Shown in pieces: positions 1-58,428 of a stretch of 64,000 nt of DNA. Source of the DNA: Dysidea avara (lineage: Eukaryota > Porifera > Demospongiae > Dictyoceratida > Dysideidae); assembly GCF_963678975.1 (NCBI RefSeq), contig NC_089273.1, forward strand, positions 32,736,973 through 32,800,972, given 5' to 3'. How positions within the stretch are numbered: position 1 is the stretch's first letter; each line of letters begins with the position of its first letter. The translations under genes and the position numbers were made by a program. The notes beneath the pieces are model-generated. The model saw only the letters and a program-made list of their open reading frames with translations. It did not search any database and was not told the origin of the DNA.

Positions 1-1905
1 CTGCAGCTGAAAAGATGTCCAGCATCTTGGTAACAATGCAGGAAATATGCCCATTGTAGTCTGCAAGCCTTTCAGCTCTGATGAATATCTTGATGACATC
101 AACCATGTGATACTACACCCACAGTGTGAATGTTCATCTCCATGTCAACCTGTAGTACTTTGCAGTAAGATATTTTCAGTAAAGTTGTCTTATCACCACA
201 CACTGACTAATGCATAGACTACACAGCATACTGTATTTATACACAAAAACTACAATAAATAACTTACAAAAATAACCCTGAATACATACAATCTGCATTC
301 ACATAGAAATGATTTAAGATGGTGCTGATTGCATGATACAAAACAGAGTGTTAACACAGTTATATGTTTATGTAAATGAGTTCATACTTCTTTGTTACAT
401 GGTGTGGCTTCTCAGTGTTCCCAGTTGATATTGATAAGGTTACTACAAAACTTTAAGTACCGGAATACATTTAAAATTATGTTTTCTACAACAATTGAAA
501 TTGTATTGTATCAATAGCTATAATAGTACTGTAGTTCTTCTGAACACCGGAAAGTGGGCATGGTCTTTTCCACCAAGGAGTGGTTTTGGTGCAAAACAAA
601 TGCTTTTGTTCAATTCAGAATCATGAAAAACCCCTATTTTGATTCCACACAAGGCAAAATTAAACTTTTTAATTTTTGCGATAATGGTTCAGTTTGGGTA
701 CTCACGCTCCAGCAGCTGTCATGGGCTCCCCCACAGGATTTGAGTTTAAACTTTTTGAAATATGTCATCAGACACCTTTACAAATACATTGGTGAAAAAA
801 TTTCTTGGCAAGGAATTTATTCCCCAGATTTACCAGATATCTGATAATATTCCTTGACTACATGTAAGTAGCACTCGTATTACATGTCCTACCTCCTCTG
901 TGACATGTGGTAGTTCTTGAAAAGTCTTACAAGAAACTGGATTGCATTGGTGAAGGTACCTATTCCCAGTTGAGAGTGTGGCGCATGACTAATATAGATG
1001 CCTTGTCCTGAAATAATTAGACATGCAGTTGAAAAGGGTTGAATCTTTTTAGCACAAAACAGTGAAAACACATCAGATTGTGCAGTAACTCTGTGGTGAA
1101 AATTACATCCCTACAATTGTATTATCTTGGCAAGGTACATCCAATCCAATTTCTATAACTATTAGTGTGAATCAAACGATTACTGAGAAGATCACACACG
1201 TAATTTGACATGTGAAGTCTCATGAGCATATTGTACAGAACTTATTCAATGTACTGCTTATTTCAGCTCATTGTTTTTTGCAAAGCACACGATTTCCAGA
1301 AATTGCATATGTTCTTAACAAACAATAACTAGGAACAAGGTCATTTTTTAATTGTTAAGCCATTTGCAACTAATAAAGTCACTCCTATACAGGTATACTT
1401 CAACCATTAAAAGAAACTTTTCACTTCTGTTTAGCCATGTGATACTGGCTGCCTGTATGCTTTTAGTCTTACTTTTTTTTGTCTACAACCACATGCAGTG
1501 AAACTATACATGCATCAAAAACTGTTCTGAGTGCCAGGACATCTACTAAGGCTTGTACTGTTACTTTATAATTAATTGCAGTGAGTTGCAATTGATCATT
1601 CCAAGTCACACACTGATTGCCATTAGGGTCAGTGGTCAAGAAACCTGATCCAGTTTTACCTACAATCTGCTGTTTTGTATTAGAAACCATCTATTTATTG
1701 AAAAATAAGTATATCTTCGGAATTTACTATATAATTGTAACCATATGCTGTGGTGATTGATGAAATTTTAGCTACCTGCATTTCTGTTTTTGATAGATAC
1801 ACTTGTCCACAGAGTATGCTGTTGTATAATTTGAGCTACTTTTATGTAATCTGTTTACTGTTATCATGTGTGTAATATTTGTTACTCTTCACATTGTAGT
1901 GAACA
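1..1905. other. Intergenic, no supported gene
   Basis: AT-rich sequence without a recognisable domain. The open stretches here (for example 554-844 plus and 1469-1690 minus) are short, have no family resemblance I can name and no supporting splice or promoter pattern. The minus-strand stretch 1469-1690 has a fairly protein-like composition and could be an isolated exon, but nothing confirms it. The last bases before the TRIM start are a pyrimidine-rich tract ending in TAG (about 1887-1899), which could be a 3' splice site for a 5'-UTR intron. Confidence 0.5.
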
Positions 1906-4127
1906 ATGTCAGCAGTGGAAGTGAAGAAAGCTCAAAATAATTTAAGTTGTCCAGTTTGTTATCAATTGTTCAACAACCCCAAGTATCTGCCTTGTTATCA
2001 TTCCTACTGTGAAGGATGTCTGGAGAAGATGCAGGTACAATCCAAGATCATCTGTCCTGAGTGCAGGAAGGAAGCTAAGGTTCCTGCAGGAGGAGTGAAG
2101 GAATTTGCTACCAATTTCTTCATCAACCAACTAGTCGATGATTTAATTCTAAAGAAGAAAGTGGCCAGGGAAGAGAAAGTCAATTGTGACAGTTGCATTG
2201 GAAAAGATCTTGTAGTATCATTTTGCCCTGACTGTAACTCATTTCTTTGTCACGCTTGTAATGACTTCCACAAACGTAGCAAGATGTTTGCCAGTCATGG
2301 CATTGTACCATTAACTGAACTGAGATCAAACAAAGATATACCAACACAAGCTAAACCAATAGTACTACTTTGTAAGGAACATGATGAACAACTGAAGTAC
2401 TACTGTGAGACATGTGATGAACTGGTGTGTATGTATTGTACAATAAAGAAACATAATGGCCACAATCATGACTCAATGAAAAACATGGCCAGTAAACACC
2501 GGTCTCAGTTAAAGAAGGTCACCACTCCAATAGAAGGAATGATCCAAGACCTGTCTGGTGCACATAATACCATCGACGAGATGATGAAGAAGATAAGAAA
2601 ACAAGGTGATGAAATCAACAAGCAAATTGACCAACATTATAATGAACTAGTTGAAAAGCTGATGAAGCAGAAAGATCAAGTGAAGCAACAAGTACATGAC
2701 ACAGTGTCACAGAAACAGAAGGAACTTACAACGCAACTTGATGAAGTGGATGCAACACAAACTGAACTTGTAAGCATGAAGGAACTGAATGATGCTCTAG
2801 AGAAGAACTCTGACCAAGAAGCATTGTCTGCAAACTTGGCAAAGAAGCAAGTGATTGATGGTATGCAGCAACTAACTGGGAAGTACAAGAAACTTAACAA
2901 ACATCCTGTACGATCAGCCTCAATGAAGTTTACACCTAGTAAAGATCCTTTTCCACAATTTGGTTCTTTCTCTGCTGTAAACTTCCATAGTTCTGAGGTA
3001 GCTAATCTACCACAATCCATCATTGCAGGTAAAAAGGTAGAAGTCACTATCATCACCAAGGATAACAATGGAGATCATTGTCCCACAGGAGGTCACAAGG
3101 TATTTGTCCAGCTAATATCATTTACAGGCAATGTTACTGTTGGGGAGGTAAAGGATAACAATGATGGTAGTTATGTGGCTTCTTTTGTAGGTGAACAAGT
3201 TGGAGAGGCAAAGTTACATGTGTCAATAAATGGTCAAGAAATTAAGGGAAGTCCCTATAGCATTGTTGTGATTAGAAATTACCAAGCACTTAAACTGCCT
3301 AACAAGATAGTGAATAATAATGGTAGGATGGGTCAACCCTGGGTCAACCCTGGTGGGGTGTTGTATTTGGTAGGAATGGAGTATGGGCAGTAGATGACTG
3401 CTCCAACCATTGTGTGTATGTGTTTGATGGTCAGAATATGTTAGTTAGGAAGATTGGTAGTGGTGGTAGTAATAATAGTCAATTCAGTTATCCTCATGGT
3501 GTTGCATTTGATAATTACAATCACTTATATGTGGTTGATACTAGTAACCACAGGGTACAGAAGTTTGATGTCAATGGTAACTACTTGCTACAGTTTGGAG
3601 GTCATGGTTCAGGTGATGGTCAACTGTGGTATCCATATTGTATCACAACACATACTGGTAGGGTATATGTTGCTGATTATAGTAACCATCGTATATCAGT
3701 GTTCCAGTACAATGGTCAGTTTTGCATCTCTTTTGGTTCTGATCAGTTACGTGGTCCCTATGATGTAGCAGTTAATGTCAATAATCAGTTGCTTGTTGCT
3801 GACAGTATACGTAGTAATCATTGCATAGTCACTTTTAGTCTTGATGGTCATTATGTAGGCAAGTTTGGTACACAAGGATCTAATAGGGGTGAGTTGAATA
3901 GTCCATATAGTCTTGCCACTGATGTGAATGGCTTCATCTTAGTTAGTGATGGTAATCATCGTGTATCTGTCTTTGACCATGTTGGTAACTTCATTCATTG
4001 CTTTGGATCTAAGGGATCTGCTAATGGTCAGTTTAGTTGTCCTGGTTACATTGCTCTCAGTCCTAATGGTAGCATCTATGTTAGTGACCACTACAACAAA
4101 AGGATTCAGATCTTTACCAACTACTGA
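1906..4127 (+). CDS. TRIM-NHL protein (RING, two B-boxes, coiled coil, filamin, NHL), frame disrupted
   Basis: Tripartite-motif family protein, predicted E3 ubiquitin ligase or RNA/protein scaffold acting in the cytoplasm. Seen in the sequence: a RING finger at residues 15-53 (C15-x2-C18, C30, H32, C35, C38, C50-x2-C53), B-box 1 near 94-131, B-box 2 near 153-190, a Lys/Gln-rich coiled coil about 195-330, a filamin/ABP280-type Ig repeat about 345-455, and about six NHL repeats with F-x-Y-DxxNHRVQ-like cores (3380-4127). The first frame runs 1906-3393 and stops at TAG; the NHL part continues in another frame. The NHL frame is open upstream of 3414 and meets the first frame at a tandem duplication at 3330-3351, so this is one gene broken by about 14 extra bases. 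No intron interrupts it. A TTGTAG-type acceptor just before the start suggests a 5'-UTR intron. A truncated protein lacking NHL repeats, a pseudogene or a minor allele are all possible. Confidence 0.85.
3330..3351 (+). repeat. 11-bp tandem duplication that shifts the TRIM-NHL frame
   Basis: The unit GGGTCAACCCT is present twice back to back (3330-3340 and 3341-3351), followed by a few extra G/T bases. Removing about 14 bases here would connect the filamin part to the NHL part in one frame. 14 is not a multiple of three, which explains the stop at 3391-3393. Confidence 0.8.
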
Positions 4128-13175: not shown

Positions 13176-14676
13176 GTATGTCTCGTATATGAGCCAAATA
13201 AATCTTGTGGCCCAGACAACTGTCACCCACGTGTGTTGAAAGAAATCAAAGATGGACTTATTTTACCCCTCTATCTCCTATTTAATAAATCGTTACAGGA
13301 GTCCTCTTTGCCTTCATGCTGGAAACTAGCAACAGTCACTGCCATTCATAAGAAAGGTGATACAAATCTTCCTAGCAATTATCGCCCAATCAGCCTTACT
13401 TCAATATTTTGCAGAATGCTTGAGTCAATTATTAAAAATAGGATAATGTCTTACTTCCAAGCAAATGACTTTTTTTGCAATGAGCAACATGGGTTTCGTA
13501 GCAGGAGATCTTGTGAGACGCAGCTATTGACTGTTATGGAACACTGGACTAGGTGTATCGATGATGGAACTAGTGTTGATGTTGTGTACCTAGATTTCCA
13601 AAAAGCTTTTGATAAGGTTCCCCACAGACGTTTGCTGACTAAGTTAGAAGCATATGGTGTTAATGGCTCGATACTTCATTGGATTAAAGCTTTTTTATCA
13701 AACAGGAAGCAACGAGTAGTTGTTCGTGGAGCACTCTCTGAGTGGTCTACTGTCACTAGTGGTGTCCCGCAGGGTAGTGTGCTTGGTCCCATCTTATTTA
13801 TTATATAATTATGTCAACGACCTACCTGACTGTATACAGAGCTATTTGGGTATCTTTGCTGACGACACAAAACTTTATCGCCCCATCTGCTCATCTGAAG
13901 ATTCCTCCATTCTGCAAGAAGACATTGATGCCACTTTGCAATGGTGTGACACATGGCTATCCTTCCTTAACCTTCCTAAATGTCACTACAGCACAATTGG
14001 ACATTCATCAAACACAGAGTATTATTTCTCATCCGAAAATGAAGCAAATATGATCTCCATGGTTGTGGAGGAAAAAGATCTGGGTGTAGTATTTGATAAA
14101 GATTTGAAGTTTACATCTCATGTTAATCAAATTGTAATGAAAGCTAACAGGGTATTGGGAATTATTAAACGTACCTTTGCCTCCAGGGATGCCAACACAA
14201 TAAGATTATTATACGTTACTCTTGTTCGCCCAATTTTGGATTATGCGTCAACTGTCTGGAACCCTCATCTTATGAAAAACATTCGTAAATTAGAAGCAGT
14301 TCAAAGAAGAGCCACAAAACTTATACCCTCCTTCTATAATTTGACATACTCTGAAAGACTCCAAGAACTTAATCTACCCAGCTTACTTTTCCGTCGAACC
14401 AGAATGGATCTGATTATGACTTACAAAATCCTGAACAATTTAGTATCTGTGGACAAAGACTATTTTTTTACTGTTAATACCAACCCCACCCGATCAAATG
14501 GACTCAAACTTTACAAAAATCGCTTTAACACTGCTATTAGAGGTCATAGTTTTTCACAGAGAATCGTCAATGATTGGAACACCTTACCCCAAGAAATTGT
14601 ATCTGCACCTAATGTACTGATCTTTAAGACTAAAGTAGATGCATTTTTATATGACCGCCGGTTTGATTTTATTTAG
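13176..14676 (+). pseudogene. LINE reverse transcriptase, frameshifted
   Basis: Reverse transcriptase of a non-LTR retrotransposon. The first part (about 13,176-13,807) shows KSCGPDNCHP, NYRPISLTSIFCRMLE, EQHGFRSRRSC, the catalytic VVYLDFQKAFDKVPH and SGVPQGSVLGPILFI. The second part (about 13,810-14,676, another frame) begins YVNDLPD and carries the catalytic FADD box (F replacing the usual Y), then the thumb and C-terminal region with ILDYASTVWNP and a final WNTLPQEIV. The frame changes next to the GPILFI/YVNDL junction near 13,805, where about four extra bases (a TAAT-like repeat) are present. So the copy is 5'-truncated and frameshifted but little eroded otherwise. Confidence 0.85.
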
Positions 14677-18178: not shown

Positions 18179-18563
18179 ACTAGTGGGGCAAAAAAATTAT
18201 TAATTTTCAACAAGTAGAATAGGGATCAAATATTTGATTTTGAAAAAAACTGCGTAAACAAGAAGTAATAGGGATGATAATCCACAAAATTCTATGCATC
18301 ATCAGTTCAAAGCAAGTTATTTGAATAGTGTACACTCAATTTGCGATTCCTATTTCAACATTTTAACAAAATTTAACCACAAGTTGAAATAGGAATCGCA
18401 AATTGAGTGTACACTATTCAAATAACTTGCTTTGAACTGATGATGCATAGAATTTTGTGGATTATCATCCCTATTACTTCTTGTTTACGCAGTTTTTTTC
18501 AAAATCAAATATTTGATCCCTATTCTACTTGTTGAAAATTAATAATTTTTTTGCCCCACTAGT
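18179..18563. repeat. Perfect 181-bp foldback repeat
   Basis: The left arm 18,179-18,359 and right arm 18,383-18,563 are exact reverse complements by eye, separated by a 23-base spacer. The outer ends are ACTAGTGGGGC. There is no coding capacity. Perfect arm identity implies a very recent origin or continuing gene conversion. Confidence 0.9.
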
Positions 18564-20615
<2,052 letters not shown>

Positions 20616-20649
20616 ACACACAAATACAAACACACCTAACCAAAATAAA

Positions 20650-20753
20650 CTCTCGGTCTCAAATAAAGGCCCTATTTCGTTACAGACCAGGTAAAAAATG
20701 TTTTTAAAGAAATAGAAACCCAGTTTTTATATGATAGATACGTACACCTATAC
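20650..20753 (+). repeat. Dispersed repeat, copy A
   Basis: Shares GGTCTCAAATAAAGGCCCTATT, ACAGACCAGG and a TTTTTATA...ATACGTAC end with 62,815-62,925. The DNA transposon at 20,761 sits right at its edge, so it may have inserted into this repeat. Confidence 0.5.
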
Positions 20754-20760
20754 ATACAAT
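20754..20760 (+). repeat. 7-bp target-site duplication, left copy
   Basis: ATACAAT directly precedes the left inverted repeat; the same seven bases follow the right inverted repeat at 25,924-25,930. Confidence 0.8.
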
Positions 20761-20830
20761 CAAGAGTATATAATGTGGGAGGGAGAGTGTCGAACTACGC
20801 TATGGCCTGTGAAAAATGAGCCCGTTAAGT
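20761..20830 (+). repeat. Left terminal inverted repeat
   Basis: 70 bases, starting CAAGAGTATATAATGTGGG and ending GCCCGTTAAGT. The partner is 25,854-25,923 with one mismatch (G here, A in the partner's complement, inside the CTAT-GCC word). Confidence 0.92.
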
Positions 20831-20924
20831 CCTATGGCCTCGACAAGAAGTGTAAATAGGTGAGACCGGCGTGCGATGCTGTGGGTTGAGGGCGCGCACG
20901 CTTATATGCACGTGCGTCACAAAT

Positions 20925-22661
20925 ATGGCTGAGTGCAGTTCGACTGAGAATGGAGTTGTAGGTGCCAGAAGACGAAGTACACGGCGCAAACTGTTAGAAA
21001 AAGAAGTAGAATCGGCGAGCAAGCAAAGAAGGACGGACGTAACTCAGTGTGAGACAAATAATGGAGAAAACTCGAATGCAGGAGCGACCACAGCTAGAGC
21101 AGCCCAAGTCACGAAGCAAAAAAAACCCTCGAAAGAAGGCTAGAGCAAGCAATTCCAAGGAATCAGAGTCCACAAACGACGATGGCTCAACTGTAACCAC
21201 GGCTCGAGCATCCCTAGCCACAAAGCAAAAACTCGCTCAGAAGAAGGCCAGTCTAAGAACAAGCAGTTCAAAGGGAACAAAAAGCTCAGAGCTTATAAGC
21301 GGCAAAGGTTCAAGTACTGGAGCAACCACGGCTCAAGCAGCTCAAGCCATGCAGCAGAAAACCTCTCAAAAGAAGGGCAAAACTAGTAAAACTAAAGCAA
21401 TGAAGAAATCAGAGAGGGATGAGTTGTTGCAGTCAATACAAAGTATCAGTAGTGAGGTTATACAGTGGGAAGTAATCAGTAAACTGAAGGAAACTTTTGA
21501 TGATGGTGGATTACTGAAAGATTTTGCAAATGTGTTGTGTACATCAGAGCAGCCTCTTCGAGAAGTACTTGTGCATCACCATCGTTACTTTGGGACACTT
21601 TACATCAGCAGCAAGAAACTTCCAGACTCCTTCTTACGATTCCAGCTAGATTGGCACAATTACTGTAGTGTTTTCCTGCTTAGTGAAGAATATTCTTTGC
21701 AAGACATAGATTACCAAGAGCTGGCTGAACACCCTGTGAATACCCTTCGAAGCACATGGTTGGAATTTTGTAAAGCAAATGGAATGCCTGTTCCCCACTG
21801 TAACAAGGTTATGATAACAGTGTCATCTACTGTGTACCACTTTCTATTAGAACATGTAACTCGATTTCAGAAACAACTTGTTGAGTCTGGGAGTGTAACA
21901 ATAGGAACAGATGAAGACGGCGTGTACTACCGTTTTGGAGGAGCAGCACTTTGTAGTATGTTGCATGCGCTATACAAGGACATCAAACAGTGCTCTGATG
22001 ACCAAAGAAATGTCCTTTCTCAAAAAATCACTGTGCTACAAGCTATCAATACCAAGGACAAATCGTGCATTCCAGGATACTTAAAGTATCGTGACAGGGG
22101 TTACATGTATTTCCCTGATCCACTATTTGTACCATACCTTCGTGAAGTGGACAAGGTCTTAAAGCAGGTGGTCAATTCAAAAGGGTTAAATGAACATGGG
22201 GCTGATTTAATAAAGGTGAACACTGGTAGATAGTTTAACTTTATAGTAAATTCTAAAAACTATTCATCTTTATTAGAGACCATGACTGGGTGTGATAGTC
22301 TCAAACGCTTGTGTATATTTTGAAATATGTTGTTGTCCTTTGCAAATCGAATTATAACTGGTGTTGTTTCTTGCAGGTGGGACACACTACTGTCGCTGCA
22401 CGTGATGATCTACGGGAATCATTTAAAACTGTATTGGCCCAAAAGCTACCAAACATCGAGACTTTCAATGAAGAAGTTTTAGAAAGTGTTTTTGTAGAGT
22501 TTACTAGGAAATTGTGCAATACTAGAATTCAAGAGTTCGTCTCTTCAATGAAACAACAACTAGCAACTAAGAAGGGTGTGGCATCCACTGTAGAAGTAAA
22601 CTTACGGAACACACTGTTAACTCATCACACACAACTGGGGGCTAAGTTCACTGCAATATAG
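20925..22661 (+). CDS. Transposon companion protein, unknown function, 2 exons
   Basis: Not a family I recognise. The start at 20,925 (AAATATGG context) is chosen because the Thr/Ala/Gln/Lys-rich motif GATTARAAQVTKQK in this frame is a first copy of a repeat that recurs twice downstream in the next frame (VTTARASLATKQK and ATTAQAAQAMQQK). The frame change falls in an A8 run at 21,118-21,125; one base fewer would give a 524-residue protein. An alternative start at 21,049 gives 483 residues without any frame break. Exon 1 ends at 22,215 (AAG|GTGAAC) and exon 2 is 22,377-22,661 after TTCTTGCAG. The N-terminus is lysine/serine-rich and disordered, probably nucleic-acid binding. The C-terminal ~350 residues look globular, with YYRFGGAALCSMLH and KYRDRGYMYFPDP as distinctive stretches. 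A possible polyadenylation signal, AATAAAG, is near 22,715. Being inside the terminal repeats, it likely assists transposition. Confidence 0.75.
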
Positions 22662-22765
22662 TACATGCATTCTTGACTGTATGATTTGGCACATATTGTG
22701 CATGTGAAATTTCAATAAAGATAAAGTAGTACATTAAATACACTGGTCAATATATTACAAGTTAA

Positions 22766-25729
22766 CTAGTCCTTTGTGCTTGCTTTACCATACTTGTGCT
22801 TTACTAATGGTAGCTCAATTCCAACAGACTGGTCTCGATAATCTTTCCCAGCTTGATGGCTAGCAACACACTGCTTAACCAAATGAGAACATCTTGCTGT
22901 TGCATAGTTTGCCGCATCCAACTTTCCACCAGCACTGTATTTATATTGGCTAAACAAACTCTCCACTGCAGATCCACAAATTCGAAGGGGTGAAATAAAG
23001 TATGTTGGATAGCAATTAAAAAACCATTTAGCAAAGGCGTTAAAGCCATAGATATCTATCCGTAGAAGGTCCCATGCTACAAATAGAAAAATAGAAAATA
23101 CACACATTCTGAATCAGCTTACTTTGCCATGACAGGAACTCCCTTTGTGTGTTGGAAGTGTGTGGGAAATTTGGGTCTGTAGAAAGAAAACTAAAATCTC
23201 ACACATATGTTCAAAGTAAAATACCGCATTCAAGCAGATCAGTAAGCCATCCGGAAAAGTAGCGGTATCCCTTGTTGATGTTATTCAGCACCTCAGAATT
23301 GAGACCTCTAATTCTTTCATGACTCAGAAACCCATGTTCAAACAGGCATTGACAGGCTTCCAAGTATGCCAATGTTTCAGCTGTCTTAGCTGCTTCTGCA
23401 GGTGTAGTATGGTCCTGATGAATATGCCAGTGGAGCTCTGACAATACCTGTTCTTGCTATTTCACAGCCAGATGACATAAATACACATTTCTCACAAAAC
23501 CACATTATTACCTGCATTATCTTTGCTGGTAAGACATTTAATTTAGTCCACGCATCCCGCAAGCAGTGAGTTTCCTTCAGCTTTGGTACCATTCTTGCAC
23601 AATTAAGCTTCACTCGACTCAATTCTCGTTGATACAAGTCATCAATCGTATTCCATCCAAACTTGCACTGGCCACTGTGCTGAAAATGCTTAGTACCAGT
23701 GCTCTTTGAAGAGAACAGTGCATTCACCATATTTTTGAGCTGGTAGAAAGTGAAAATTTAAGATCATTCGTGCATTATGATTGGTACATACCTGATGAGA
23801 TGGGCAGATTAGCCAGTAAATGTGATGAGGTGGATTGAATGGATTCACCATCCATGGTTTCACTTCAAAAATATCATCTTTGTTTTGAGCAACTGAATAT
23901 ACTCCATTGTGTTTGTGGCTTGCTTTTATGGCTGAAACATTTGAAGATGCGCCATCACAAACCAACAGGCTTGTTTTCATGCCATAAAACTGAAACAGCT
24001 TGACTGTCTCTAAAACACATGCTATGACAAATTTCCCTTCCATGGAAGAAGAAGTTGTAAAGTAAGGTCCCACAATGTCGAATTCACTGGTAAGGTCACG
24101 CCATAGAAACTGGAGTATATAAGATGTTTGCTGTGCACTGTCAGGTTCTTTCAATAATCTATAAATGTCATTAAGGGAAGACAATTCTTGGTGGGTCATG
24201 GCAAGGCCCATCAGCTGATGGCTACGCGAGTTCCACATCAGTTGACATGCAACTTTCACCTCATCAAATATGAGTACCCCATCCGATTTGGGCTCTTGTT
24301 TACCAGCTTCTCTGCACTGTTCCTTAAAGATTACATAACGAGCAACCTGCCTCTCTATGCACTGACTGCTTGCTCCTGGTTCATGCATAAATGCTCCAGT
24401 GTAGGCTTGTAATGTTGACCTGGATGGCAATTGCAAAATTCCAAAACTTTTAAGAGCCTCATAAGCTGCAGGACTCCTGGTATATACTGCTAAGGCTAAA
24501 CATAAAAGTGCTATATAAATGGGGTTTAACATACAAAGTAACTGACCAATTCTAACAGTTATCATGCTCCATTTGTTACCTCGCTCTCCAGAAACTGACA
24601 AACAATCATATAATAATAATATAATCAATTAAACAGTACTGTAAAGCTTACCATTCTTGGACTGATCATGCAGGAACTGCTGCTTCTGACGCTTACTATC
24701 AGTGTACCAGATCTCCTTCATTAAATCACCAACTCCGTGTTCACTACCTTCAAGTAAAATCTTTTCCAACTCTTCAGTCCTAATACTCTCCACAATAGCA
24801 CACATCTCGTCATGTTGTTCATCATTCAACGTTACATCTGACTCGGAACACTTTTCCAACTTTCGTAACAAATTGGATCTCTCACTTTGCGCATGGCATT
24901 TTCTCTTATTCTGGCTAGCTGGAGACATATATGAAAGCCTGGCCCGTGATGATGACAATTGCCTTTTCAGCTTTCGACTAGGGCTTTCTGCTAAAGTACG
25001 GCGTCTTTGGCAATTCAAATAGTGGATTAGCCTCTTACAAGCAGCACAGTGAACTTCCATAGATGCTTTTTCAGCTGCAGTTGCATTGCTGGCCAGCAAA
25101 AACCATAGATTGCAGTTTACTGAGTCTACTCGGGCAAAAGGCTCTGCAGTTTTCCTCACACTTTTAATATCAAAGCGGACAGTTTCAAAATAATGCAAGT
25201 TGTAATACTTTGGGTCAATACCAGGACAAAATTTGTATCCAGAGCCAGCACGAAATTGACGGCACAATTCCTTCACATCCCTGACAGACTTCAAGGTACC
25301 TGAAATCAGTTTCTTCATCATCACATGAACTTCGTACTCCATTCCCCTGATGGTTACTTGGACTCGCGAAGTAAAGCCAAATGGACGGTGAAACATTAGT
25401 GTTTGCTGAGTTATCACTACCATAGAGTTCCCTGCGTCGTCTTGTGCTTTAACAAAACACAGATCCGGAAAATCATTGGTCCCCAGCTCGCACACTTCGT
25501 GATGAAAAAGCTCATGTTCCGCTCGATCCACCTCCCCAATCTCTACAGGACCGTTGTTCTCCTCTCCAGGCACTCCTTCACCTCGTTCTTCACTTACTGC
25601 GTTCGCTTCAGTCCCTTCACTGTCACCGGTGATGCCATCTTGCAACTCATAATTGATTTCCCGTTCAATATCACTGGACATTTCAACATTTTGCTGAACC
25701 ACTGTATGTTTCGAAGGGGTTTCAGCCAT
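22766..25729 (-). CDS. P-element/THAP9-like DDE transposase, 884 aa, 7 exons
   Basis: Predicted transposase that cuts and joins the element ends. My exon model: 25,729-24,652; 24,594-24,547; 24,495-23,792; 23,739-23,512; 23,456-23,225; 23,176-23,123; 23,076-22,766. All introns are GT-AG, and exon lengths sum to 2,655 bases, giving 884 residues without a stop. The N-terminal ~250 residues are acidic then mixed. A Cys-rich patch (HCAACKRLIHYL) is followed by a basic stretch (SPSRKLKRQL), perhaps for DNA binding; no classical THAP zinc finger is visible. The catalytic part has LPSRSTLQAYT, then LIFDEVKV (D near 453), LLVCDGASSN (D near 556) and GSAVESLF (E near 820), the spacing of a P-type DDE fold with a large insertion between the last two. 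CPSHQLKNM marks the conserved H/N region. The ATG at 25,729 has a good context. The gene appears intact and possibly active; superfamily naming is less certain than the transposase call. Confidence 0.82.
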
Positions 25730-25853
25730 CGTTCACTTTGGTTCTTGCGGCCATGAGGTCTTAGCCGCCTTGACATAGACGTGTCGATTCGTGCCTATCA
25801 ACACCAGTCGAGATTACGTAAATACACGTAGGCATCCGTAAATATCCGGAAAC

Positions 25854-25923
25854 ACTTAACGGGCTCATTTTTCACAGGCTATAGCGTAGTTCGACACTCT
25901 CCCTCCCACATTATATACTCTTG
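25854..25923 (-). repeat. Right terminal inverted repeat
   Basis: Inverted partner of 20,761-20,830, with one mismatch over 70 bases. It ends ATATACTCTTG at the outer edge and is followed by ATACAAT. Confidence 0.92.
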
Positions 25924-25930
25924 ATACAAT

Positions 25931-33342: not shown

Positions 33343-33430
33343 TGTTACGGTACTGACAACGATTCAACTCTAAATAACGCCTGATCGCCCTCTGGGGCGC
33401 GCGCACTTAAATATTATTATTCTCATCACA
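33343..33430 (-). repeat. 3' LTR, 88 bp
   Basis: On the element strand it begins TGTGATGAGAATAATAATAT and ends ACCGTAACA (TG...CA). By eye it is identical to 38,422-38,509. 88 bases is very short for an LTR and leaves little room for a promoter. Confidence 0.9.
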
Positions 33431-33441
33431 CACCCCCCCAT
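33431..33441 (-). other. Polypurine tract
   Basis: On the minus strand ATGGGGGGGTG lies directly against the 3' LTR, the expected place for plus-strand DNA priming. Confidence 0.7.
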
Positions 33442-33556
33442 GAAAAGAGGGTTGGTACAACAAAACAAATGGCCTAAATACAATAAAATTACATGAACTG
33501 CCTAAAAATACCAGTAAAACAATAAATTCACACATTACAACAATATTATACCAGTG

Positions 33557-36500
33557 TCAAAGTCCTCGCGATAATGCATCTGCAACAACGTTGTGCTTTC
33601 CTGGGATGTGGTGTATGTTGAGGGTGTACTCCTGTAGCATTAAACTCCACCTCAATAGACGCTGGTTACGATTCTTTACGCGATTAAGGAAAACCAAAGG
33701 ATTGTGATCCGTGAAAATGTCTATAGGGAACTGGGCTGGTGTTATGTAGAACTCAAATTGCTGTAGAGCTGATATCAATCCCAATGCCTCTTTTTCGCTA
33801 GTGGAGTAGTTTCTCTGAGCGGCATTAAATTTCTTCGAGAAATAACAGATTGGATGTTCTAACTTGTGTACATCCTCTTGCATCAGAACAGCCCCCATTC
33901 CCAAATCACTTGCATCCACATGTATCATGAATGGCTTCTCGAAGTCTGGCATCGCTAGTACTGGGGCTAAGGTGAGAAGCCTCTTTATTTTAGAGAAAGC
34001 TTGCTGCTGGTCATCTTTCCACACAAAGCTGTGTTTCTTCTGAAGGAGTCGGGTAAGAGGTTCAGCCACAACTGCAAAGTTCTTGCAAAACTTCCGATAG
34101 AAGCCTACCATGCCCAAGAAACTCATTAGTTGATTCTTGCTACTGGGTCTAGGAAAGTTCATTATTGCCTCTACCTTGGCATGAATGGGTTTAATTCCCC
34201 CTCTACCAACAACATGGCCTAGTAAGTTACACATGCCTGACCAAACTCACTCTTGGCTAAATTGACAGTGAGTTGAGCTTGCCTGAGCCACGTCAAAAAC
34301 TGCTGAATCCGCTGCAGGTGCTGCTCCCAGGTATCACTAAAAATAACGATGTCGTCAATGTACCCTTCACATCCTTCTAGGCCGGCAAGAACTTGGTGGA
34401 TAATTCTCTGAAATGTTGCTGGCGCATTCTTTAACCCGAAAGGCATCACTTTATACTGAAAGAAACCAGTAGGAGTCACGAATGCTGTTACTTCCTTTGC
34501 GCGAGGTGTTAAGGGAACCTGCCAATATCCCTTCAGAAGATCAAACTTGCTAACGTACTCGGCACCACCAATCTTGTCTATGCAGTCCTCCACGCGGGGA
34601 ATGGGGTATGAATCCGCTTTAGTGATCAGATTCACCTTGCGGAAATCAGTACAAAATCTGTAACTTCCGTCCCCCTTTGAACGAGCACGCAGGGAGAACT
34701 CCATTGACTCTGGCTTGGTTCTATAATATGGTTAGCCAACATGTACTCAATCTCCTGTCTCACCACTTCTAGCTTCAATGGGTTGACCCGATACGGGTGC
34801 TGCTTAATGGGACTAGCATCTCCAACATCTACATCATGAACTGCTAAGGTAGTCTGCTTCGGCACATCTGGAAATAAGTCCGCAAACTCCAAGAGCAGGG
34901 AAGAAAGTTGAGTCTGCTTGGAAGCTGTAAGGTGCTGCATCTTCACTTCTAAGTTGGCTAAAACACCAGAGTTCTTCAGCTTGACGCTATCTCCTGTCAT
35001 GTCCTTACCCAGAGGGAACTCTTCCCTTTCTGTTGGCTTCTCAACAGCTACCATCAAAGTTGGGTGAACGTCTTGGCTCTGTGTTGGAGCCTTCTCCCAG
35101 TACGGTTTCAACATATTGACATGACAAAGGCGACGAGTCTTACGTCTGTCAGGGGTACTGATGACATAATCAACATCATTCACTTTCTTCAATATCAAAT
35201 AAGGACCAGAATACCTGGCCTGAAGTGTGTGATTCTTAAGTGGCAACAATACCAGAACTTTGTCGCCTACATTGAAAGTGCGTAATTTTGCTTTCTTGTT
35301 ATACCAGCACTTCATCTTGGTTTGGGCAGATTTAAAGTTCTTCTGAGCGAGTTCGCCAGCAGCTGTAAGCCTGGTACGGAGGGCCGAAACCTGATCCAGC
35401 AGGTTTGTGGGAGGTTCTTCTGTAAGCCAGCCTTCCTTCAATAGCTTTAAAGGGCCGCGGACTGTCCGGCCAAAAACTAATTCAAAAGGACTGAAGCCCA
35501 ATGATTCCTGGACAGCTTCTCGCACGGCAAAAAGTAACAAGTGAATCCCCTGGTCCCATTGCTTCTCAAATTGAGAACAGTACGCGCGAATCATAGTTTT
35601 CAGAGTCTGATGAAAGCGTTCAAGTGCTCCTTGGGTCTCAGGGTGATAAGCAGAGGATTTGCATTGCTTAATCCCTAATTGGTGTGTAACCTGTTGCATG
35701 AGACTAGACATAAAATTGGAGCCTTGATCAGACTGTATCAGGGAAGGTAGGCCAACAAGGGTGAAAAACTTGACAAGAGACTTGGCTATTCGGGGTGCCT
35801 TAATGTTATGAAGAGGGATAGCCTCTGGAAAGCGTGTAAATCTGCACATAATTGTGAGCAAATACTGGTTACCTGACTTAGTCTTTGGTAAAGGACCAAC
35901 ACAATCAATAATGACCTGACTGAAAGGCTCACTACACACTGGGATGGGTTTAAGAGGTGCCACTGGAATCGTTTGATTAGGTTTACCAACCTTCTGACAT
36001 ACATGACAACACTTACAAAATTCGGAGACGTCCTTCCTTAGATGTGGCCAATAGAAATGGGTGAGAATTCTGGAGTACATCTTGTTGACACCCAGATGGC
36101 CTGCCATGAATGACTCGTGAGCTAAACTTAGCACTTCTCCTCGGTACTTTCTGGGTACAATTATCTGGTGGACAACCTGCCATTCCTCACCAGCAGGGGC
36201 ATCTCTTGGTCGCCACTTCCTCATCAGTACGCCAGATTTAAGGTAGAAACATTGTGCTTGACGACCAGCCTCTTCCTCACTAACAGCAAACTGCGCCAAC
36301 TGGTTAACCTCTTGATCACTCTCCTGATCAGCAATGAGTTGCCTACTAGATACAGGAAGGTTACCTGCATCTTGTACTGTTCCGCGATCATCATCAGTCT
36401 GGTCACCTCGATCCTGCAGTACTGACTGACTCTCTACAGCCTGGTCAAGTACATCTTGCGCTATTGACAGGTTGTCTTCAGCCTGGTCATCTCCCTCGTC

Positions 36501-38180
36501 ACTTCCAGTATCCGGCTGGTTGGTAGGTGCACAATTCTGTTGTGCCTGAGCACGTCGCGCTGCTGCTCTTGTCACCACACAAGCTGGGAAAGTGTCCGAA
36601 ACCCCATCAGTAGTAGGTCTTGAACACAGTATTTGCTCAGTGTTGCTAATAACTTGCAAGTCAGGTTGAACCTTGCCACCGGCCAGATTGTTGCCCAGGA
36701 TTAGAGATACACCTTTCACTGGTAAGCTAGGTCTGACTCCTACTACTACGCGGCCAGATACCAAATCCGACTGAAGGTGTATCTGATGAAGTGGTACTCT
36801 CATTACATCCAGGCCTACTCCTTGGATGAGCACACTTGCACCAGCAGAAGTCTGATCCGACAACGGCAAAACATGGGAAGCAATAAGAGACTGTGTGGCA
36901 CCAGTGTCACGTAAAATCTTCACAGCCATAGTATCTCCACCCTCTGGAAGGGACACGCGCCCTTCGGATACAAATGGACGATAACTATCCAAGTCCTGGG
37001 GCTTGGGACTAGGAGAGGAAGGTCTATTCACAGCTTGAACCAATGAGTGGCCAGTAGGATGATTCCTCCTCTTTTCCAAAGTGCGACATTCTGAGATCAC
37101 ATGCCCTCTCCGTTTGCAATAATTACAAATTGGTCCACCAGAGGTAAACCTTTGCATATTCCTCTGAGGGTCTACTGCACTACCCGTGGACTTGGAATCG
37201 GCATGAGTGCGAGTAGTGTCACTGTGCAACCCTCTATTGTGCGAATTATGTGAACTGTCCGAAAAAGAACTATGGGTTAGGGAGTAGTCGTCGGCGAGTA
37301 CTGATGCCTGCTGGAGACTGTCTGCCTTTTGCTCATCGATGTAGGTTTTGATACTATTGGGCAAACAACTCTTAAACTCTTCTACAAGTATGAGCTGGCG
37401 AAGCTTCTCAAAATCTTTTACTACTTCTTTAGAAGCACACCAACGATCAAACAAGGCTTCGTTGTCCCTGGCAAACTCCCTGTATGTTTGTTTGTCCTGC
37501 TTCCGACAATTCCAAAAATTCTGACGGTAGGCTTCGGGAACGAGCTCATACGCCTTCAACATAGCCTGCTTGACATTGTCATACTGCCCACTCTGTTCTA
37601 CACTCATAGCTGAATACACCTCCCTGGCCTTTCCAATAAGCACACTCTGGAGCAAAACCATCCACACATCCTTCGGCCACACCAGACTAGTGGCCACTTT
37701 CTCAAAGTGCAGAAAGTACTTGTCTACCTCCTTCTCTTGAAATGGCGGGACAAAGCGGATGTGCTTGCTCACATCAAAGGGTAATGGAGGTCCAGGGGAA
37801 GGTGTTGAAGGAGCTACTGTTGCTGCCTCTAATTCTCTCAACTTCAGTTGCAGTGACATTTCCTTCTCACGTACTTCCAACTCGCGAAGCTTCACTCTAG
37901 CCTCTCGTTCCCGTTCACGGTCTTGAAGCTCTAGACGCTTCAACTCTACGACACTGGGGTCTACAACTGGGGATTGAGATTCATCGATCTCCTCTTCGGA
38001 AACTAGCTCTTCATCTACTAAATGTTGAGTGACTAACCAACAGAGTTCGTTCTTTCTAGTAGACGAAGTGAACGTTAAGTTAAGCCTTGTGGCTATTTGC
38101 TGTAGCTGAGACTTCTTCAGCGACTTTACCACTTGAAGCGAAGGATCGCTAAGAAACGAGTCAACATTGAAATCTGACAT
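33557..38180 (-). CDS. Gag-Pol polyprotein (Gypsy-like, integrase before RT), two frame breaks
   Basis: Retrotransposon polyprotein. The start is taken at MSDFNVDSF (38,180); an earlier GTG is not used. In order: gag with a charged coiled region (EREREARVKLRELE) and capsid-like part; a CCHC knuckle CNYCKRRGHVISEC (about 37,085-37,130); protease with DTG (about 36,920); an integrase zinc finger with H..H..CKCCHVC (about 36,000-36,130); an integrase core with IIDCVGP, QSDQGSNF and ETQGALERF (D, D, E); and GPY/F-like RYSGPYLILKK. Then come reverse transcriptase with TDFRKVN and YIDDIVIFS (34,219-34,680) and RNase H with HVDASDLGMGA, SEKEALGL and TDHNPL, ending PGKHNVVADALSRGL at 33,557. The first frame stops just after 34,632; breaks of one missing base each lie near 34,675 and 34,226. 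Allowing for them, total length fits about 1,541 residues. They may be mutations or assembly errors. Confidence 0.88.
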
Positions 38181-38399
38181 GGAGCGAAAGTCGACGATAG
38201 AACCCTTTACAGGTGCCTGTAAACCCGGCACCAAGGACTTTTAGAGGTGGGTTAAGAAAAAAATGGCGGACGCCTTGGAAGAATCCGCTCTGAACAACGA
38301 CGATATCGGCTTTTCACCGTAGGCGAAGGTTGCAAAGGTTCCAATATAAAATTCTTTTGTCGATAGGTAGGGTTGAAAGGTAGAACATCGACGTATCGT

Positions 38400-38417
38400 C
38401 TCCCGGACAAGCCCCCA
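38400..38417 (-). other. Primer-binding site, tRNA-Pro type
   Basis: Four bases inside the 5' LTR, the element strand reads TGGGGGCTTGTCCGGGAG. This resembles the complement of the 3' end of tRNA-Pro, starting with the TGG that pairs with CCA. The tRNA identity comes from recalled knowledge of tRNA-Pro primer sites, not from a search. Confidence 0.7.
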
Positions 38418-38421
38418 AGTT

Positions 38422-38509
38422 TGTTACGGTACTGACAACGATTCAACTCTAAATAACGCCTGATCGCCCTCTGGGGCGCGCGCACTTAAATATTATTATT
38501 CTCATCACA
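38422..38509 (-). repeat. 5' LTR, 88 bp
   Basis: Direct copy of 33,343-33,430 with no difference seen. Contains the GC-rich word GGGGCGCGCGCAC (plus strand). Followed outside by GCAA, matching the GCAA before the other LTR. Confidence 0.9.
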
Positions 38510-47021: not shown

Positions 47022-50000
47022 CTAATATTTAGCTACTAATTTGAGTTCATTCTGAAGCGAATTCCTTTTTAACATCATATGTTTGTGAGGGGCTACTAAC
47101 TCTGACAAGTGATCAACTGTGTGTTCTATTGGATTAAAACTGATGTCAACAACCTGTAAATTGGCAACATTTAGTGCACTAGTTACAATTGTGATTGCAC
47201 TATCTTCTTGCATCTCACAGCTTGCAAGTATTAATTCCTTTAGACTTTTGTTGTTGGAAATCAAAGTAGCAATTTTATCTGCTACTGCAACATCGATTTT
47301 ATTACCACCAATGTTCAAGCAACATAAGGATGTCTTATCCATTATGGCATCCAGCACTTCTGATACCTGATAAAATGACAGTTTGCAGTTGTTCAGATTC
47401 AACTCATATAGCCATTGCTGTAGGGCAACACAGTCTCGTAGGATGCTTGTAGAATGTTGAGGAAAGTCGTTGTAACTGAAGTCAAGAGTTTTCAGGACTT
47501 TCACGTTTTCTAAAGCATTTAAAATTTTAGTGACCTGTGGATGTTCTCTGAGTCCACAATTAGACAAGTTCAAGTAAGTTAGATAAGGAGCTTGTGTGAT
47601 AGCAAGTGCTATACATCTTGTAACATACTCTGAAAGAAGCTGACAGCTAAGGTCAATCTCTGTAACATTTCTTGCACTAAAATTGACTATTGCTTGAAAG
47701 ATTGCCTTAACTCCATCATCTTCTAACCTACAATCAGACAAATGCACACTTTGCAACTTGCTGTATTCAACCAACGACGCAACGTAAATAGCTGCTTCAT
47801 TTGAAATTCTGCTGGAGCTCAAGTTGATGTACTTCAAATGGGAACACTTTGATACTACATGAGAAACTGCAAGAACTTCTTCCTCACATAAATTGCAGTT
47901 TGATAAATTTAAATACGCAAGCAAACTATTTTCAATGGAAGGAACAGTTGCATTAGGATTCTGCACTGAAATATTGTTATTGCTAATATCAAGATGCCGC
48001 AATGAATTTTTTACTCCAAGTATATCAAACAAAATTTTAATCCCAGTTTGGTCTATTTTGCACTTTGACAAATCTAAATGCTGTAAACTAGCATTGTTGC
48101 TAACAAGTTGAATCAAGCCTTCCACATGTGAACCAGAATCATTACCACTCAGATTCAGATATGTAAGAGTTGATACACTTTGCAATGCTATTAAATTAGT
48201 AGAAAATTTTGCTGGATCAGTGAAACTACCAGACAATTGTAATACTTCAACAGCATGAAGCGAATTTGTGAGCTTAATACAAGAGCCACTAGAAATATAA
48301 TTTTTACTAATGTTTAGATGTTCTAATAATATACTTAGATATTTTATATTACAAACCGTGGATAGTTTTTGAGCTATAAATTCTTGACTTAATTTACAGT
48401 CACAAAGGTCTAACAATCGTAAATTGGTGCTATTAGATACAGCGATTGCTAATTTGTTTTCAAGTCGATCAGTGATGGTAATCCTACTAAGACTTAGATA
48501 CTCCAGTGAGGTGACTAATGTTAATGCTTCAAAGATATTTCCAATTCCTCCTAAAATCTTGCAGTTTTTCAGACTAAGATGCTTCAGTGTAATTTTATTG
48601 CTACTCAATACCATGGCAAGGCCATTGCTCATGTCTTCAGTCAAAGTATTTTCACTAAGATCAATATGATTCAGTGAAATATTGCAATAATTAGGTCGTC
48701 TCCAAGCATCTAGAATTTGACTGAAGTCATCATCTTGCACCAATAAGCCAGACATATTCAAATATTGTATATCAATATTATTAGCAATAATATTACCAAT
48801 TGCAAAGGCTGCTTGGCTAGAAATAACATTGTAACTGAAATCTAGATGATTAAGAGTGGTGATTTGTAAATGGTCAGTAAAGACTTTCTCCTCCTTTTGA
48901 TGCAGTCTGCAATTAGATATGTTCAAATGTGACAACGTGATAGCAGAGTTACTCGAAATTATGTTCAAGACATCCAACGTCACTAGAAAGTGTACATCAT
49001 TAAAGCTAACATTTAAGTAGCGTAACGATGTCTTGTATTTCAATTTATGTGCTATTTTTAGAAGTCCAGATGCTTTCACCTTGCAATTTGATAAATTTAA
49101 ATGTTCCAAATCAACACTGCTATGTAATAATTCACAAAGTTGCTCAATGGGCTGTTCACCTATATGGTTTGAGCTTAGGTCTATGTGGCGAAGTGATGCA
49201 ACACATTTAAGTCGAGAAAGAATCAGGCTGATACTTCCTAACCTCAGCCAACAACCTGACAAGTTTAAAACTGAAAAGTCAGCATTCTTGTTCACAATAC
49301 CTACTGTTAAATACACTACTTCTTTAGGACAATTGTCAAAAATTAACTCGAAATGCTTCATTGTACAATGTTGCTTCATATTATTTAGCATTGTTGACAT
49401 CTGAAAATCCTTTCGTTTTAATTCAGAAAGAATTAAGACATTCCATGGCATAATATCAGTTACACACTGGAGCAATGGCAACAGATCAATTAATACTTTA
49501 GTATTTGTTATTGTAAAACTCAAATCAAGACAGGACAGATGACAAAATTTCTTTTGTAAAATGGCAACGATTTCCTTTAATCCTTTAATGGAGAATTCAC
49601 AGTCAGAAAGCTTTAGTTCTCTCAAGTGTGTATTATTGGCAATGACATTAGCTATGTTCAGGACAGCTTCATCATTGAAGTAACTGTAACTTAAATCAAG
49701 ATATACCAGTGATGTCATCTTTGCTAAAGCAAAAGTAACTTTTACAAAGTCATTTATTTCTGTGTGGACACCAGCTAGTTTCAAGGTTTCCAAAGAACAA
49801 GACAAAATCAAATGAACAAGTTTAACAGAAGTCTCACGTGTAAAGTAATGAAATCTAAGATCCATGTATTTTAGCTTCTTTTGTTCTTTAAGACAGTACA
49901 CAATAGTAGACAACTCTTTCTCATTGATAAGACAGTGAGCAAGCTCAAACCTCTCCAGGTCATTGTTGCAGTTACATATGCTTACTATGTGTTTTGCAGC

Positions 50001-53000
50001 AATGCTAGTAATGGTATTGTGGCTAAAGTTGACATGTTTCAAGCTCGTTAGCTTAGCACTTACTATTTCAAACAGCTGAGTACTAGCACATGATAGAACA
50101 CACCCAGCAATTTCCAAGTGAGTTAGTTTAACACTTTTAGAAATCATTGCTGCAAACTCTTTGATCAGATTTCTCATTTTGATATTATTTATATTGAGAT
50201 ATTGTAAACCATTCAACATTGAAAAAATGTTTTCCAGTTCAGTTTCAGGTATATCACAATATGCTAAACTAAGACCTCTAAGATTTGTGTTAGAGGAAAC
50301 TACATGAGTTAGAATGGTAGCTACCTCATTACTAACAACGCATCTTTCAATGTAAAGGAATTCCAAAGAAGCAAATTTTCTTAAGTTACTGTGGAGCATA
50401 TAGAACTCAGTTTCAAATAAGAAGATTGCCTTAGCATGAAACAATTGTAAATATGTATTGCTGTTGAATAAACTTGGTATGTTCTTTACTACAGCAGGAT
50501 CAGTAAGAAAGGTGGACCTAAAGTCTATAACTTTACAATTCGTCAGATTTCTAAGTGCCATAGCAATTTCTTTTATTCCCTCTTTCTGTAGAGTACATTG
50601 TGGCATTAGTAGATACTCAACAGCAGGATTTGTATGCAAGAAGTTAGCAACTTCATGTGCTACTCTATTTGTGATACTACTGGAAGTGGTTTTAAAAAAT
50701 TTTAATGAAATGTTATCTTGAAATGCTTTTACAATACTAATCATATCTTCTTCTGGAATTTCACCATACAGTTCAAAGTGTTCTAAATATGAATTACGAC
50801 AAAGTGTGTTTAGAACAGCCTTAGTGATACTAGTTGAAATACAAGTGATATTAACACTGAGGTGTTTCAATGTAGTAATTTTACTAGATGCATTCAAAAC
50901 TGCCAATAATCCTTCTTTTTGAAGATTACACGATGCCAAGTTTAAGTATTCCAGTTCACTGTTATTTAAAATCACACCAGCTATTTCTTGTGCTGTATCA
51001 TCACTATCAAACTTCATACTAAGATGCTTTAATGATGTTAAGTCTTTAAAAGCGGAAGCAATCTTTGCAGCTGCAGTTTTTTTCTAAAACACAACCAGAC
51101 AAATCTACTTGCTCCAGAAGACTGGTGGAAGTAGTCATATCTGCTATACAACAGGCTGACTTGTATGTAATCTTATTAAAACTTAAATCAATACAGTGAA
51201 TAGGCCCATTTCGAACACTATTAAGGATGGCAGTAAACCCTTCCTCTTGCAATTGAGTTTTAGATATCATCAAATTTGTTATCATCAATCGTTCCAGCAA
51301 CTTTCCCAAACACATACTTACATGATGAGAAATACTGTTAGAGCTTAAATTTAGACATTGTAGATGGTTATTGTTAGTCGCAAGTGCCTCGAATATTTTC
51401 ACAATAGCTGCTTCTGATATGTTGCAGCCAGCTAGCTCAAGGTGTTCTAAATTGGTGTTGTTGGCTATCACTGCAGCTATTCCAACTTCATCTCCATCAC
51501 TTATTGGAACAAAGTTGAGGTTTAGGTATTGTAATGCTCTGACACGTTTAAGTGAATTAGTGATTATGTCAAGTACCCCAGCTGCAACAGTGCAGTTTTC
51601 TAAGTTGAAAAACTGAAGATTGCTATTGTTAGTTAGACTAGATGCCAGTGACTGAACACTTGAAGCTGTTAAACTGACACTATCAAATACAATACTGTTT
51701 AAATTGTACATAATTGAGAAGCACTGCTGCAAAATGTCAAATCCCTTCTGAGATAAATATATTTTATTCAAATTTAATAGCTTTAGCATTGTGTTACTAG
51801 CAATAGCAGCTTCTAAACTATTAGCCAAAGTATCATTAATAGTACATGTGGACAAATTCAATGTCTCCAAAACACTAACATTGGTTGCAATAGAATGTAG
51901 GACTATAGCAAGTGCAGCATCAGAGAGGCTTGTAAATGGCAAGCCAAAATACATCATTTTCTTATTGTTCATAAATAATGAAGTGAACAGTGTAACTGTT
52001 TTGTCTGAAATATTTGTACAGCTCAAATCTAGATGTCTTAATTCCCTACTGTCTTTCAATCCTTTACAAATACTCGCAGTCCCATCTTCTGTTAAACTGG
52101 TCCCTTCCAACATGACACACTCCAGTTGACTATTACCTATGAGCACCTCCGCCAACGTGATTGCTGACTGAAATCCTATGTTATTGTTACGCAAATCAAT
52201 GTGGTTTAGACTGGTCGTACCCTTCAATGCCTCTACAACAAAATAGCTACCAGTTTCAGTTAATTTACAATCACACATATTTAGAAACTGTAAGGCAACG
52301 TTGCTACACAGAACCTTAGACAATGTTTGACTGACTTCATTTGATAATGCATTGCAAGATACATCAAAGTACTTTAAGGAATCACAAGATTGCAAAGATC
52401 CAAATACAAGCTGTGCTCCTTTTTCTGTTAATGCACATTTAGAGAGATCAAAATGCGTAATGGTAAATGTCCCCATCAAATAACTAGCAACATTAAGTGC
52501 AACATTGTCAGAAATAAAGTTTCCAGAGACATCCAAGTGCTTTAAACTATTAGGAAGAACATCCATCAATTTTTGAAAGCAGGTATCTTGAAGTTTACAT
52601 CGAGCTATCTCAATATGAATTAACTCCATCTGGTTGTCAATGACGTTACAAAGCCTATCAGCACTGGAATCACTAATAATGATGTCATTGAGTTTAAACT
52701 GTTTTAATGACTGCATATTTGCTAGTTCAATTAGAATGGAGCTAATTCCAGCTTCTGAAATATTACATGCTGACATATTTAGGTGGCTAATATTATCATT
52801 TTGTCTAATACAATCAGCAATGACATTTGCTTCACTATCAGCAATGTCAACTTGATTTAGACATAGTTGTTGTAAACATTTAACCTTATTAAGATACTTT
52901 ATGAGCACCTTAAAACCTTTTTCGTGTAATGAAATATGAGACAGCTTAAGATGTTTTAGAGCAAAATTGTTAGCAATTACTGTTGTAACGTCAACTGCCA

Positions 53001-57711: not shown

Positions 57712-58428
57712 TTTACACTCTATTATCAAAAGAAACAACATATTATACATTATAATAATGTACAAAATATGTAAATGAATATAATATTAAAGGGGCAATG
57801 CATCCTGAATTGTTTATACGTGAAGCCGTCCAAGTTTATGATGTAATCATTTAAAACAAATTGCGTCATTGTGTTATGGATCACGTGTGTTATTAAAGTG
57901 ACAGTCTTTATATAATTGTCCTTGTATGAAGATTGTAAGCCAGATGAGCTAGAATGCCCCCTGGGCTGTCTATAACATTGTAACAAAGCCGATACATGAT
58001 GGTAGAGGGCGTGATCATCTTGTTCAAAACGAAGAGTTTCATTTCATACAATAACAATGCTGTCTGGTTGTGATACGTGAACACAAGTTGCCGTGTAGTG
58101 TCAATTACTCCCCAGCTGCTTGTTTATTCCTTTTACAGCAATAGAATAAAATCTGTGTATAGTTTTTAAGATTGTTCTCCCATCCACTGACACACACATG
58201 TGATTTTATTGTACACAAAATAATCACGTGTTTCTGCAATCTTGAATGGCTTTACAACAAAACAAATTTGCGACGCATTGCCCCTTTTATTGCTATGCAC
58301 CCGCACATGTGTATCTACATATGCATGTACAGAATCACTAATGTTACTGATACTGAGCACTATGCACTTTTCTACATGTAGAGGGTCAGCATATGTACAT
58401 TAACAGCTCTTTTTCACAACACATAAAT
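57712..58428. other. Probable NLR 5' region
   Basis: Upstream of the NLR start on the minus strand. A TTTTGATAATAG just before the coding start could end a 5'-UTR intron. No TATA box or upstream exon can be fixed from sequence alone. Confidence 0.35.

Follow-up and report, generated by a model that had tools for sequence, protein, structure and literature searches.

The transposon at positions 20761-25923 (5,163 bp) of a 64,000-nucleotide stretch of contig NC_089273.1, referred to here as the window, raises the question of whether it belongs to the P/THAP9 type and, if so, what its second gene is for. Two convergent genes sit between the inverted ends, a transposase gene on the minus strand and a second gene on the plus strand, which confirms the layout described in an earlier reading of the same DNA (the original prediction). 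Judged from its sequence, the element is a genuine P-type transposon with a transposase frame that looks whole and with an unusual second gene. We consider it very probable that it is a cut-and-paste DNA transposon of the P/THAP9 type in which the second protein most likely works with the transposase.

Transposase

The family PF21787 (TNP-like, RNase H N-terminal domain), whose curated cut-off is 24.6 bits, was matched with 40.8 bits by the frame of 312 amino acids (aa) around exon 3 and with 38.2 bits by the spliced transposase. We take "TNP-like" to denote the P/THAP9 transposase set. The matched stretch of the spliced protein (441-567) contains both D453 and D556, and further along there are a CPSH motif (C606-H609) and E817, which is located in VESLFSQYKYSAGG. 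The residues D453, D556, C606PSH609 and E817, placed by eye, match the order D, D, [C/D](2)H, E which passages of PMC8230255 give as the signature of the P superfamily. The profile search and the order of the acidic residues bear out the P/THAP9-type assignment made originally; the same two aspartates had been named then, and the third residue is E817 and not E820. The distance from C/D to E is 211 in this transposase compared with 192 in fly and 199 in human, according to the residue numbers in passages of PMC8230255. An insertion of similar length is thus present in the region of the GTP-binding insertion, and Pfam gave no match there.

The predicted gene consists of seven exons and six GT-AG introns, and its spliced frame has 881 codons. 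The introns are 46-64 nt long with a G+C content of 29%, as compared with 40-46% in the exons. The expected frame is free of internal stops in all seven exons and has the best coding score in six of them, the exception being the 54-nt exon 6. These scores were based on the codon usage of one host gene and of the second gene, the transposase itself having been left out. From these features we infer the six-intron splicing, so that the six introns and the single frame originally proposed are retained in our splice model but the length of 884 codons is not. A single-sequence fold of exon 1 gave a mean predicted local distance difference test score (pLDDT) of 35.5, too poor for use.

Several observations weigh against the assignment to the P type. 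PF21787 was the sole Pfam match of the spliced transposase at E up to 1; Pfam also includes separate P-type GTP-binding and C-terminal models, and no profile for the GTP-binding insertion or for the P-type C-terminus was found. The P transposase in PDB was not matched by sequence search with this transposase. Moreover the THAP family (PF05485) was not matched by the transposase at E up to 1 in Pfam, and the C2CH pattern is absent from the transposase and from the frame-B model of the second protein (described below), so that no THAP finger was detected, in agreement with the original prediction. All P proteins known in 2006 are said to carry a THAP domain in a passage of PMC1562414. The spacing between the two aspartates, 103 residues, is longer than the 73 of fly and the 70 of human (passages of PMC8230255), and longer than the 87 given for zebrafish in a passage of PMC10983969, the zebrafish residues being numbered differently in PMC8230255. 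In addition, the coding score does not back exon 6, and no further copy and no relative was found in the scans of viral and prokaryote contigs.

Since PF21787 alone was matched and the P transposase in PDB was not, the catalytic half can be regarded as P-type by profile and the remainder as too divergent for the tools used. The gene may contain a divergent THAP finger or an upstream exon. Coronavirus nsp4 was also considered as a relative of the transposase (PDB chains at E 0.11-0.54, the top two carrying the table name RNA-directed RNA polymerase, and Pfam nsp4 at E 0.027, below its cut-off) and was taken as chance.

The lack of relatives in viral and prokaryote contigs is expected because the element is an animal element. 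The viral contigs were covered by four scans; five pattern stretches matched the 280-aa piece of the second gene and none was confirmed, there was no match to the 312-aa transposase piece or to transposase exon 1, and no exact match to a 33-base pattern from the ends. Among the prokaryote genome contigs, 14 pattern stretches each were obtained for the 280-aa second-gene piece and for transposase exon 3, again with none confirmed, and phages searched by tblastn gave no match to a 233-aa transposase piece. A two-gene or THAP-less P element was not found in the titles and abstract openings of the open-licence literature, among the matches listed.

Terminal repeats and target site

The two inverted ends are identical at 69 of their 70 bases, confirming the single mismatch that had been reported. 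The repeat finder gives an inverted match of 72 bp, in which the two additional bases are part of the flanking duplication. A 27-base piece of the end, allowing up to three mismatches, occurs at two sites only in the window, both of them the element ends, and none of 100 shuffles reached two matches. Subterminal transposase-binding or inverted repeats are a further trait of the P superfamily; here, apart from the terminal repeats, the outermost 250 bp on either side share a single exact 8-base word, ATGGCTGA, located at the start codons.

The length of the flanking direct repeat is ambiguous, between 6 and 9 bp, since CA opens the element and also follows in the right flank. The 7-bp reading is preferred because only this reading results in the symmetrical ends CAAGAG...CTCTTG, and the repeat is most plausibly a target duplication of 7 bp, ATACAAT. 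The 7-base duplication of the original prediction is therefore found on both sides of the element, with its length taken from the symmetry of the ends. A target duplication of 7-8 bp is expected of the P superfamily, and ATACAAT falls within this range. The exact flanking repeat and the 69 of 70 identical bases fit a recent insertion, which they suggest without giving a date; recent activity of the family is no more than a suggestion from the same two observations. No palindromic target motif of the Galileo kind was seen, as only 2 of 12 mirrored positions pair.

Near the left end there is one copy of a 95-bp dispersed repeat (20634-20728), which stops 32 bp before the transposon and is 76% alike to a second copy at 62811-62905.

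Second gene

The second gene looks coding. It contains a stop-to-stop frame of 396 codons, whereas 300 first-order simulations of the element reached 211 at most. Frame A scores best, although weakly (-2.0 and +2.2, with the other frames at -12 or lower), in two windows over 20925-21104, and frame B is the best-scoring from the window 21045-21164 onward, the frame-B scores past 21373 being partly circular as this region is in the coding-score training set. In translation, the three 56-nt repeats at the head of the gene stay in register solely when the frame is shifted within the first of them, where eight A stand in a row (21118-21125). The reading frame of this copy is accordingly interrupted at codons 65-67, unless an internal ATG, a weak intron or a sequencing error is involved. 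The gene remains open only through an ATG further in, at 21061 or beyond, or through a weak candidate intron. Within the tested range there are 121 formal GT-AG solutions for an intron spanning the frame change, the best of which have weak sites; such an intron was not adopted because part of the repeat array would be lost. The description of the element as apparently intact therefore suits the transposase frame, which looks whole, but is not supported for the second gene. The coordinates of all these features are collected in Table 1.

Table 1. Positions in the window of the predicted features of the transposon and of its flanking duplication
Feature	Position	Strand	Remarks
Target-site duplication, left copy	20754-20760	.	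ATACAAT; direct repeat extends to 9 bp counting the element's first two bases
Left terminal inverted repeat	20761-20830	+	70 bp; starts CAAGAG; TATATAA near tip
Second gene, first part (frame A)	20925-21143	+	starts MAECSS; coding-like until the eight-A run, then stop 21141-21143
Second gene, exon 1 (frame B)	21061-22215	+	internal ATG 21061; coding scores put the body after the A run
Three imperfect 56-nt repeats	21086-21379	+	lysine-rich head of second gene; frame changes inside first repeat
Second gene, exon 2 with stop	22377-22661	+	intron 22216-22376, 161 nt; AATAAA at 22714
Transposase exon 7	22766-23076	-	E817 and stop
Transposase exon 6	23123-23176	-	54 nt; least certain of the exons
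Transposase exon 5	23225-23447	-	splice model
Transposase exon 4	23512-23739	-	lies after CPSH and before E817; site of the GTP-binding insertion in P transposase
Transposase exon 3	23792-24495	-	D453, D556, CPSH (C606); PF21787 match
Transposase exon 2	24547-24594	-	splice model
Transposase exon 1	24652-25729	-	N-terminal 359 codons plus one base; THAP finger not detected
Right terminal inverted repeat	25854-25923	-	70 bp
Target-site duplication, right copy	25924-25930	.	ATACAAT

The second protein, in the frame-B model, has a lysine-rich, basic head with 30 K/R and 10 D/E in its first 120 residues. This model, which is without the frame-A head (20925-21117), gave nothing above the curated cut-offs in Pfam or NCBIfam. 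Five Pfam matches to the second gene were below cut-off, the best with E 0.018. The lowest E-value of all libraries, 0.00039, was that of NCBIfam TopJ for exon 1 (19 bits against a cut-off of 300), followed for the same exon by NCBIfam sigma-54 with E 0.0058 (15.6 bits against a cut-off of 499); these two, and the one match in PHROGs (exon 2, E 0.096), were dismissed as composition. The best PDB match to exon 1 (385 aa) was S100-B with E 0.26, which was taken as chance. No Rfam family was matched. A duplication of part of the transposase is unsupported as the origin of the second gene, the best blastp match having E 0.66. The single-sequence fold of a 281-aa piece of the gene had a mean pLDDT of 38.3, too low for use. 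The second protein and the N-terminus of the transposase may resemble unnamed cnidarian and sponge proteins.

Proposed mechanism

According to passages of PMC7776569, the P transposase binds and pairs the transposon ends, cuts them and inserts the element with a staggered joint. By analogy, the minus-strand gene would encode an RNase H-type transposase with D, D and E as putative catalytic residues, which would bind and pair the 70-bp ends, cut, and insert the element with a stagger of 7 bp. The staggered joining to the target would then leave the 7-bp duplication. The second protein, which has a basic head, most likely acts with the transposase, whether in recognition of the ends, in entry into the nucleus or in integration.

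The genes face inward, with the ATG of the second gene at base 165 from its own end and that of the transposase at base 195. As they run inward from near-identical ends and as TATATAA is present near the tip of both, each end probably doubles as a promoter. This copy may depend on others for the second protein because the frame changes near the start of the gene, unless an internal start is sufficient.

Role of the second protein

An accessory role, as in MuDR or Harbinger, appears the likeliest by analogy for the second protein. In its strongest form, which the original prediction raised as a possibility, the gene would be a required partner, replacing the missing THAP finger or supplying integration like the Myb-like protein of Harbinger or mudrB, and this we regard as quite possible, if somewhat short of an even chance. 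The convergent layout, in which each of the two ends lies close to the start of one gene, argues for it, as do the basic head of the second protein and a transposase without detected THAP. There are also precedents, since passages of PMC8224964 describe mudrB as needed for insertion, with excision possible without it, and those of PMC9179366 describe a Myb-like protein that interacts with the Harbinger transposase, with joint nuclear import and end binding. On the other hand, Pfam, NCBIfam and PHROGs recognised no DNA-binding domain in the second protein, the gene of this copy changes frame near its start, and the scans of viral and prokaryote contigs found no relatives showing that the pair travels together.

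The frame change can also be taken together with the whole transposase frame as a sign that the second gene is a passenger or a captured host gene without any role in transposition. Its lack of significant likeness to the transposase (best blastp E 0.66) and of known domains would agree with this. We consider it doubtful, however, in view of the mirror-like arrangement of the two start codons, at bases 165 and 195 from their respective ends, and of the beginning MAE of both proteins, which comes from the common ATGGCTGA, although these eight bases may be shared by chance. It seems unlikely that the second gene encodes a regulator, for instance a repressor of transposition, or that the gene is whole and the change of frame arose as a mistake in sequencing or assembly; the position of the change in a homopolymer of eight A would suit an error. 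Finally, membership of another RNase H superfamily (hAT, KDZ/Zisupton, Kolobok or Dada) might be suggested by the lack of a THAP, the 70-bp ends and the 7-bp duplication, but it is very improbable because PF21787, above its cut-off, is the only Pfam family found for the transposase at E up to 1.

Within the preferred reading, that of a P-type transposon whose second protein works with the transposase, it can be proposed tentatively, and with more doubt than confidence, that the THAP finger was lost in one branch of the P superfamily and that the tasks are shared there between a transposase devoid of the finger and a partner encoded by the same element and driven from its other end. As part of the same speculative proposal the element would act, within the P branch, as a two-protein machine like MuDR or Harbinger. 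If this were true, P-type end recognition would be possible without a THAP finger, and such an element, without the finger and with a partner gene, would offer a direct test of the purpose of the finger.

Genomic surroundings

The neighbouring genes, with RING, B-box and filamin-repeat, NACHT and leucine-rich-repeat domains, point to an animal host. The window itself may come from a sponge. The neighbouring genes comprise a TRIM-like gene with RING, B-box and filamin repeats at 1903-4127, followed by NHL-like repeats in another frame (by eye), and two minus-strand frames at 47022-57786, one of 2246 codons with NACHT and leucine-rich repeats and the other of 1353 codons with leucine-rich repeats.

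Other mobile or repeated sequences are also present in the window. At 33343-38509 there is a minus-strand long terminal repeat (LTR) retrotransposon with identical direct repeats of 88 bp and a coding part that is split over several frames, in which a long frame with SCAN and then integrase lies ahead of reverse-transcriptase-like frames (the latter by eye). An integrase-first order is a feature of Gmr1-like Gypsy elements. A match to the reverse transcriptase PF00078 was found in the first of two overlapping frames at 13176-14676, probably of the long interspersed nuclear element (LINE) type (by eye). At 18179-18563, next to a TA-rich stretch, two perfectly matching inverted arms of 181 bp are separated by a 23-bp spacer, which gives the appearance of a young hairpin or miniature element. 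An array of repeats of about 31 bp, in at least 12 copies, starts at 63606 and continues past the window end at 64000.

Comparison with known systems

Passages of PMC9179366 describe Harbinger as having a transposase plus a second, DNA-binding protein. The Harbinger transposase is a different one, and in Pfam the second protein studied here, in its frame-B model, matched no Myb/SANT family at E up to 1. Mutator belongs to a transposase superfamily different from P. Its element MuDR likewise has two genes, and in passages of PMC8224964 mudrB, the gene needed for insertion, adjoins its own terminal repeat, TIRB.

Galileo, a member of the P superfamily from Drosophila, has 7-bp duplications in most copies, within a range of 7-8 bp (passages of PMC4168063 and PMC2775673). 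Its ends are long like those described here, but they are internally repetitive (a passage of PMC2775673). The Galileo transposase carries a THAP domain at residues 14-93 (a passage of PMC4168063), whereas none was detected in this element, and a second gene, which this element does have, is not mentioned in the Galileo passages of these sources.

Compared with the P element and THAP9, the element differs in having no detected THAP finger and a second, convergent gene. Its ends of 70 bp are longer than the 31 bp of the fly P element (a passage of PMC7776569) and the 13 bp of the zebrafish element Pdre2 (a passage of PMC10983969), and its duplication is of 7 bp as opposed to the 8 bp of P in the same passage of PMC7776569. 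The ends of Pdre2 start with CATACC (a passage of PMC10983969), and those described here also begin with CA. Moreover the element has in common with the P element and THAP9 the profile of an RNase H transposase, the order D-D-[C/D](2)H-E and an insertion of similar length between C/D and E.

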